A stretch of 64,000 nt of DNA from Panaeolus papilionaceus (lineage: Eukaryota; Basidiomycota; Agaricomycetes; Agaricales): the NCBI GenBank assembly GCA_015501605.1, contig JADNRZ010000013.1:496001-560000 (forward strand). Reading direction: 5' to 3'. The position numbers and the translations under genes are program-made. Position 1 is the stretch's first letter; each line of letters starts with the position of its first letter. Of the stretch, positions 36,629-38,734 are shown in pieces. The notes beneath the pieces are model-generated. The model did no database searches, was not told where the DNA came from, and saw only the letters and a program-made list of their open reading frames with translations.

Positions 36629-38734
36629 CTACGAAAGAGCAGAGATCAAAGCGTTGTAGGCTGCCTTGGGCCTGTAGTTGCCGTCGAAAAGAAGGGGAGA
36701 GTCTCGCGAGCGCCAAGAGTCCTGATAGGCATATAAGATTTTGCTGGAGCAGTGTTATTATGATGGACAGACATACCTTGTCGCTGACACCCCAGCTAGT
36801 AATACCAACGCAGGTTGACACCTGCCTGCAAGCATTGAGAACTGTCAGGTAGTCGTTTGAGGCTGCGCCAGTAATGTCGAGCTCAGTGATGGCGACTTCC
36901 TGAACACCAGCGCTGGCGAGGGCTTGCAGAGCTGCGAGAGCGCCTCCCGCTCCATTGGGCTATAGTCGAGAATTAATTTGGTATTACGTCTTGCGAAATC
37001 TAATTCTTACACCCAAGTGCATCTGTGTGCCAATTCCATCGATCAATTTACCGGCTTGGTTGACACGCTTCACAAGAGCGACGGTGCCCTGCGCCTTCGC
37101 ATTGTTGGAGTCGAGGTTATAGTCGTTGATGTAGAGCCTGGGAGTAGGAGTAGTCGAGACAGGGTTCAGCAGGTGTATTTCAGACAATGAAGGACGCTCT
37201 CACTTGGCATGTGGGTCGTATTGACGAGCAGCTCGGAAGGCGATGGTGACGAACGACTGGTGATAACGACATCAGTGTGGGTTAGACTGAATCCATAAGA
37301 AATTTGGTATTCACCTCTCCAAGAACGTTGCCGAAAACGCTTGAACGAAGTGTTCCGTTCTCGTTCAAGATTTCGCTGGAGATGTCCTTCAGACGACAGT
37401 AGGAGCATCGAGTAGGCACCACTCACTTTACGACATCCCACTACACGACATCAGGGGAGAAACAAGTGAATAAAAAGCCTTCGATAGAGCGTAGAGGAGG
37501 AATATATTGCTTACAGCTAAATCAAAGGTTCAGTAAACATATCACAAGTTAAGATGGGGTACTACGCACCATAAAGCTTTCCAGCATATCGTCCAGCAAC
37601 GGCCTTGATATGATCCTGAATTACAGTGGTCTGAAGGAAGGAAATCAGCCTCAAGGGAACTGAGCGAATAATGCGTGTTGTGTGCTTACCAAGGTATCCC
37701 GATTGTTGATATTCTGGACCCAGGTGGGCAGCTGCGCGTGCCAGACTAAATAACTAGTAAGAGCCACACTTCAAACGGATGAATCCTAATTTACCAAGGG
37801 TATGGCCACGAATGAGTTTGCCATTGGACACAGCCCAGTTTACGAGGGTATCAGCACCACCCCAGTTGAATTTTCCACGAGAGGCTAGGGGTCAATGGTG
37901 TCAACGAAGTCAGCACTTCGGGGATAAGCGCTACGCTCACATTCGAGGGCATCCCACTACATTCGTCCGCAGGTGAGTGGTTTGGAAAGACAGATGTTGA
38001 TGTAACAAAGTACCTTCATGGAGTTCTCCTACAGATATATTGATTAAAATTAGTCGAAAACAATGAACTGCCCGAAATTCGCGACGTACAGGGGTTACTT
38101 GTCCGAAGTCAGATTTGATTACAGCAGCGTTGGCTACGTAAAAAGTCAGAGTAAGAAAAAAAGTCTCCTCTCAAGATTCGATTCAATTACCAGAGTTGTT
38201 GATCAAGTTAGCATCAGCGCAAGTGCCCTGCCGAAGAGCTTAGATGGGCTAGCAAATTGCAAGAAATAGCCAGTAGACGCGTACCCAGAATTTCTTGCCA
38301 GTTTTGGAAACAAATTTGGCATGCAAGCCAGACCCAGATCCGGGGTTACCAGTAGGTTGTGGATTCTGTTGTGTCGTGGTCGGGTTACCGCCACCGCTTC
38401 CAGGCAGGCATCTGTTGGCAATGGTTCAAAGTTTGGTTGGGTTCTGATCTGTCATTCGCCTTACTGAGAGTACCACGGGTTGGAATAAGTGCAAACGGCT
38501 CCAGAAGCACCTTAAATGCATTGTAAGTTTAATGAACACCATCACAATAGTCGACCGGACTCACAAGTTGTCTCTCCGCTGTAGCCTTGGCCACCACCTA
38601 GATTTGTAGAACATTGTATTAGTTATGTAGAGCGGCTGAGCAGGAATTGACAAACATTGGCCATAAAGTGGCACGGCCGCTTCAGCGTACTGAAGAGACA
38701 CGGCCAGAATAACAATAGGAAGAAGCTTGAACAT
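36629..38734 (-). CDS. GH10 endo-1,4-beta-xylanase with N-terminal CBM1, about 378 aa, 18 exons
   Basis: A secreted enzyme cutting beta-1,4-xylan. Signal peptide residues 1-19, then a CBM1 module ([15 protein letters not shown]...WYSQCLPG; about 24-57), a Gly/Pro/Thr/Gln linker (to about 81) and a GH10 barrel: [24 protein letters not shown], the acid/base glutamate in WDVVNE (about 208), TQMHLG, the nucleophile in ITELDITG (about 313), and GVSDKDSW near the end. The gene is split into 18 exons, several tiny: ENSMK is one 15-nt exon (about 38017-38031), the next is 16 nt, WDVVN is 14 nt, and the alanine of KLYAWDVVNE requires a 2-nt exon at 37515-37516. All introns are GT-AG. Catalytic and binding residues are present. 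Confidence 0.93.

Follow-up and report, generated by a model that had tools for sequence, protein, structure and literature searches.

The window, by which we mean the whole stretch of 64,000 nucleotides analysed from Panaeolus papilionaceus, carries on its minus strand a gene for a GH10 endo-xylanase with a CBM1 module, the activity of which is putative and assigned from its sequence. The rebuilt gene model comprises a coding sequence of 1137 nt with an open frame and 17 introns, all of them GT-AG and 49 to 74 nt long. The product, probably secreted, has the order CBM1, linker, GH10 domain and stop, with Pfam matches for GH10 (E 7.6e-106, positions 7-310 of 311) and CBM1 (E 4.4e-13, positions 1-29 of 29). 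Both WDVVNE and TELDI are present, and the model is gapless at this site when aligned to solved GH10 enzymes; we take the Glu of WDVVNE to be the acid/base and the Glu of TELDI to be the nucleophile. The features relevant to this work are, in window positions:

36629 to 38734, minus strand: complete CDS of the xylanase gene (CBM1-GH10), made up of 18 exons and encoding 378 amino acids
38014 to 38028, minus strand: exon 7, 15 nt
37941 to 37956, minus strand: exon 8, 16 nt
37570 to 37630, minus strand: exon 11, 61 nt, ending AAG CTT TAT G, recovered as the same exon in the spliced alignment
37517 to 37569, minus strand: intron 11, 53 nt, GTGCGT...GATTTAG, position matched in 14 of the 14 group A models described below
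37515 to 37516, minus strand: exon 12, the 2-nt exon CT, completing the Ala codon G/CT
37441 to 37514, minus strand: intron 12, 74 nt, GTAAGC...GTGTAG, its position likewise shared by all 14 group A models
37427 to 37440, minus strand: exon 13, 14 nt, TGGGATGTCGTAAA (TGG GAT GTC GTA AA), coding for WDV(V) and part of the Asn
37315 to 37375, minus strand: exon 14, starting C GAA, which completes the Asn and codes for the Glu of WDVVNE

Elsewhere in the window there are a BCCIP-domain open frame (27770-28420, plus strand, E 8.7e-20) and six long open frames, the shortest of 527 and the longest of 910 amino acids (41722-49083, minus strand; 53409-61809, plus strand). A Pfam search of these six at E 0.001 returned no match, and a sub-threshold F-box-like match was seen in the frame at 59686-61808 only.

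When CT is kept, exons 11 to 14 of the xylanase gene read GKLYAWDVVNE; when it is omitted, the frame shifts into stops. A preliminary description of this DNA had proposed that CT keeps the frame and yields KLYAWDVVNE, which was confirmed by the rebuilt model and by a spliced alignment obtained with a purpose-written aligner that sets no lower limit on exon size; under its first settings, this aligner returned the same structure whether the residue was masked or unmasked. Its further statement that the frame is lost with any single GT-AG intron also held, since no frame-keeping one was found in the window gene when single introns were enumerated (introns of at least 36 nt, and no more than 12 residues separating the left anchor from the Trp). 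CT thus has canonical signals on both sides and is the only way to keep the frame among GT-AG readings; a GC-AG intron, overlooked in that description, keeps the frame too. The two introns flanking CT measure 53 and 74 nt, are of normal length and have ordinary splice sites, as had been described; the second is the longest of the 17 introns of the gene and lies at the 95% point among the 254 introns of the 25 models presented below. As for the tiny exons said to neighbour CT, the 14-nt exon is indeed adjacent, but those of 15 and 16 nt lie about 425-500 nt upstream. The occurrence of the 2-nt site in the window gene exceeds chance: when its inner sequence was shuffled 1000 times, AG-NN-GTRNG with both introns of at least 45 nt arose in 3 shuffles and such a site coding for Ala in none, and the frequency of suitable sites obtained by shuffling each GH10 gene was 0-2.2% (mean 0.24%).

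The GC-AG alternative is defined by two features:

37441 to 37567, minus strand: candidate GC-AG intron, 127 nt, donor GGT/GCGTAG, giving KLYGWDVVNE
37569, minus strand: base that tells the two readings apart, G with the GC-AG intron and C in a CT-bearing message (as read from the letters; how sequencing reads would behave here is a prediction)

According to this reading, which we regard as unlikely, one 127-nt intron is removed, Gly takes the place of Ala, and the AG-CT-GT arrangement is a relic or goes unused in the window gene. It keeps the frame of the window gene in the enumeration, but its donor matches only 1 of 9 consensus bases in register, while both GT donors match 5 of 9 each; among the 254 modelled donors, one matches a single base, eight match 3 and the rest match 4-8. 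The pairing energy with U1 was discarded as a discriminator: the GC candidate and the intron 11 donor have the same value (-6.4 in both cases), and these energies are uninformative because, when the register is left free, the GC candidate pairs in the GT register, the same GT being used in both.

The rest of the genome bears directly on the choice between these two readings. A GH10 profile search of the 50.85-Mb genome, in which the window is C5:496001-560000, gave 68 exon-sized matches, which were grouped by hand into 25 places, each of them modelled; two of these (L020 and L017:1820317) stop short of the site, and 23 of the 25 reach it. A 2-nt exon was modelled in 22 of these 23. The remaining one, L011, also offers a 2-nt exon (TT, flanked by a 57-nt and a 61-nt intron), but the aligner preferred one intron, a same-length GT-AG reading (QMYSW) whose donor is GTGTTT by inspection. 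Apart from the 22, there was no internal exon of 8 nt or less among the 229 of the 25 models, this being the sole base rate available and one internal to the family. The 2-nt exon is followed directly by a 14-nt exon in 13 models, and internal exons of 14, 15 and 16 nt each occur in 13 of the 25 models; the GH10 family is therefore rich in tiny exons.

The 22 modelled cases fall into two groups. In group A (14 genes, including the window gene), the exon is CT in nine and CC in five, and the codons completed are GCY in 11 and TCY in three, that is, Ala or Ser. In group B (eight genes; L011 would be the ninth), it is AT in four, CT in three and TC in one, both introns being located exactly 5 nt further upstream and again 2 nt apart (e.g. 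AAA CT/AT/AT GCA TGG). A single branch with full support separates the 14 proteins of group A from the 9 of group B in the tree built from all 23. The introns at the site measure 47-71 and 53-74 nt, except for one in the damaged copy L017:1814550, for which the model gives 123 nt. The intron sequences of group A are nearly unrelated (median identities of 0.56 and 0.53, versus 0.49 for shuffled sequences), and AG-CY-GT is kept between them. Since the paralogues share ancestry, this demonstrates constraint since their divergence rather than 22 independent events.

The enumeration of single introns, whether GT-AG, GC-AG or AT-AC, covered 21 of the 22 genes in which a 2-nt exon was modelled; L011 was left out, and L017:1814550 fell outside because it has no TGG at the modelled junction. 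Frame-keeping GT-AG readings appeared in L013:296416, L014, L016:1315005, L018:1832393 and L019:274612, and were rejected as they delete or add residues; the AT-AC readings found in several GH10 genes alter protein length and were rejected as well. A same-length GC-AG reading, comparable to that of the window gene, exists in L019:276829, L021:1225683, L009:234516 and L014. Most paralogues lack this option and yet keep AG-NN-GT at the same place. For this reason, namely that paralogues without a same-length alternative keep the 2-nt exon, the CT exon is favoured in the window gene as well, the window gene on its own not being decisive. The robustness of the models was explored in a grid of 16 settings (four intron penalties, two GC penalties, and masking or not): the 2-nt exon was chosen in 16 to 23 of the 23 genes depending on the settings, and in 16 of the 23 under all of them. 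The seven genes in which the choice varied were the window gene, L009:234516, L011, L014, L018:1832393, L019:276829 and L021:1225683; in the window gene, the GC-AG intron was chosen in 7 of the 16 settings.

Public annotations of Panaeolus papilionaceus are divided on this point. The best database protein (P0001) differs from our model only at residue 202, Gly instead of Ala, and hence corresponds to the GC-AG reading; the same is true of P0004 (L021:1225683), and both genes have the GC option. According to the available part of the genome report, the annotation was refined with RNA-seq, the sequenced strain being CIRM-BRFM 715 (PMC8480192), and P0001 nonetheless has Gly, which speaks for the GC-AG intron. 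However, the two messages differ by one base, TATGCTTGG with CT and TATGGTTGG with the GC-AG intron, so that the Gly model could come from misaligned CT-bearing reads: we infer that a short-read aligner can fit a read containing TATGCTTGG to a single GC-AG intron with one mismatch, producing the Gly model. Across the junction, TATGCTTGGGATG corresponds to the message with the 2-nt exon and TATGGTTGGGATG, with G at 37569, to the GC-AG message. The protein deposited for the window gene probably carries one wrong residue. Three other public models of this species imply 2-nt exons: P0011 (L015), P0122 and P0123 (both L010), whose residues fit the 2-nt exon and none of the single-intron solutions enumerated for them. 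Spacing at the site is abnormal in P0121 and P0124 (both L009) and in P0227 (L014). Translated intron pieces, or a catalytic motif without WDVVN, were observed in P0002, P0005, P0024, P0121, P0124, P0227 and others, from Panaeolus and other agarics.

The comparison with other species, based on proteins, comprised two homologue searches, in each of which the best 120 of several thousand matches were taken; all 240 were classified. Of the 86 records of the first search that are intact, 8 have Gly at the site, including some from outside Agaricales (two are named Pyronema and Geopyxis), which indicates that Gly is tolerated in the GH10 family and adding to what can be said for the GC-AG reading. 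Against it stand 26 transcript-sized records, picked by hand (contig of at most 2.1 kb or no contig; their cDNA-like nature is deduced from whole frames of 334-417 amino acids). In every one of the 26 the distance to the Trp is normal, and none has Gly: the residue is A in 15, S in six, Q in three, H in one and C in one, the Q and H records looking like ascomycete sequences.

Within the best 120 matches of the first search, 34 of 103 genome-derived GH10 records are disrupted there. Within the best 120 of the second, 67 of 111 were normally spaced according to the script and two more by eye (P0204, P0229), giving 69, a few of which have odd residues; of the other 42, which may include natural length variants, 17 are missing exactly two residues ahead of the Trp. 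In the first search, three records missed by the spacing script (P0025, P0094 and P0102) were intact by eye. A count by regular expression in the second search (58 'disrupted' of 120) was too strict, and the spacing count was used instead. In 7 of the 34 disrupted models (P0006, P0009, P0012, P0027, P0037, P0065 and P0096), the Tyr is followed by [AS]V[SR], the string that results when an Ala or Ser codon is read on through a GT donor. We read these proteins as suggesting the same AG-CY-GT arrangement in other agarics, for instance Pleurotus, Pholiota and Armillaria, going by record name. Given that 34 of the 103 genome-derived GH10 records from the first search and 42 of the 111 from the second (among the best 120 of each) are not intact or not normally spaced, enzymes expressed from them could be dead or altered.

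Taking these data together, we consider it very probable that CT is a real and normally included 2-nt exon of the xylanase gene, each flanking intron being recognised as a unit. Each of the two is a complete short GT-AG intron and would be recognised through intron definition. U1 covers donor positions -3 to +6. Introns 11 and 12 would therefore not be engaged at once, as U1 bound to the second donor would extend over the final base of intron 11; because of this overlap, they would go one after the other, in either order, and the first removal would leave CT attached to a normal exon. The donor nearer to GTAAGT is the second in 14 of 22 genes and the first in four, with four equal, which does not fix the order of removal. 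We also take the arrangement to be old, a 2-nt exon being on offer in all 23 GH10 genes of this genome that span the site, at either of two positions 5 nt apart. The preliminary description held that an exon this short is beyond ordinary exon definition and raised the question of recursive splicing. A special recognition problem finds no support, the site introns of 47-74 nt being suited to intron definition, which, as far as the accessible portion of one report describes, prevails for small introns, with an efficiency dependent on intron length and not on exon length (PMC8624252). Recursive splicing would apply only in the loose sense of stepwise removal of two complete introns, which suffices here; there is no zero-length AG/GT ratchet point, two bases lying between AG and GT in 22 of the 22 modelled cases. 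Nor is the arrangement a stwintron, as both introns have complete signals of their own and the two bases between them are kept.

If CT were skipped, the frame would shift and the acid/base Glu would be lost; correct inclusion should therefore be under selection. Regulated inclusion and skipping of CT, with skipping serving as an off switch through a shifted frame and a truncated protein, is conceivable in that skipping is a legal 129-nt GT-AG splice (37569 to 37441) which always shifts the frame, and a regulated microexon is described for Xlr2 of Trichoderma virens in the part of the report at hand (PMC11121469). The sequence data, however, bear no sign of skipping, CT is flanked by ordinary splice sites, and we judge such regulation to be very unlikely. 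It is harder still to believe that the window gene has decayed and is not productively spliced, the 2-nt exon being an accident of a forced frame. Damaged paralogues do exist, such as L017:1814550, which contains stops and lacks an AG where the acceptor is expected, and L017:1820317, which ends before the site, but the window gene has an intact frame of 378 amino acids with CBM1 and GH10, it has been deposited as a gene, and its 2-nt exon is common to many intact paralogues.

The two groups also permit a tentative view of how the 2-nt exon arose. In the protein alignment, the intron positions are (129,1) and (130,0) in group A and (127,2) and (128,1) in group B, both shifted by 5 nt. Other positions are common to the two groups, (48,0) and (292,0), and there are near misses between them, (53,0) versus (54,0) and (134,2) versus (135,1). 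It is possible, although we would not rely on it, that the unit of intron, 2-nt exon and intron was present before the two GH10 clades separated and moved by 5 nt with the exon held at 2 nt. An example path would be an ancestral 7-nt exon from which one intron slid in each clade; no such intermediate (e.g. a 7-nt exon) was found among the GH10 models of this genome. One arrangement followed by sliding seems likelier than two separate gains of an intron pair, each leaving exactly 2 nt. If this is true, the GH10 family offers natural replicates for the reliable, long-term splicing of a 2-nt exon by obligate removal of one intron after the other.

In a separate observation, there are three places at which introns of the two GH10 clades differ in position by 2 to 5 nt, a pattern that looks like sliding or repeated gain at favoured sites.

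Exons of 1-2 nt have been documented for few genes. The closest case is the 1-nt exon of the P450 CYP621A of Fusarium (PMC12940212, cited here from the part available), which resembles the present one in being fungal, located between two short introns and inside a conserved motif, in having been found through misfitting exon phases, and in that public models are mostly wrong at that point. It differs in its size of 1 nt, in its orthologues across Fusarium and in the 18 RNA reads obtained, whereas the case in the window consists of 2 nt, involves many paralogues in one basidiomycete and two positions, and is known from DNA and proteins. In the same part of that report, the exon is claimed as the first 1-nt exon in a fungal gene, and exons of 2-5 bp are cited in Arabidopsis, Drosophila and humans (PMC12940212). 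The 1-nt exon of Arabidopsis APC11 is, like CT in our reading, constitutive and ultra-short, and its authors, in the portion available, favour intron definition and successive removal (PMC4674806); it differs from the xylanase exon in belonging to a single plant gene and in having been tested experimentally. The P450 microexons of Phanerochaete chrysosporium share with our case the basidiomycete host, the tiny exons and the introns of 45-55 bp, but belong to another gene family and, in the accessible part of that work, have a shortest exon of 6 bp (PMC1184071). Stwintrons, according to the parts available of two reports, likewise consist of two neighbouring fungal introns and two consecutive splicing reactions, but their internal intron interrupts a splice signal belonging to the external one, and no bases are retained between the two (PMC5639578, PMC9024468). 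Among the matches listed in our search of the literature on tiny exons, stwintrons and xylanase gene structure, no fungal GH10 gene with a 2-nt exon appeared. With 1-nt exons already published, the notable point of the xylanase CT exon is its recurrence through a gene family.

The GH10 family of this genome is itself greatly expanded, with at least 23 genes or copies reaching the active site (contigs C16, C34, C11, C45, C1, C70 and C5; loci L009-L022 and the window). Some are tandem copies: C16 has four of them in about 9 kb and C11 three, and there are groups on C34. Several look damaged (both copies of L017, C34:1814550 and 1820317; L012; L014; L019:276829; L020). The types of damage include in-frame stops and, in L017:1814550, an expected acceptor that reads AA where a near-copy has AG; L017:1820317 terminates just ahead of the position of the 2-nt exon.
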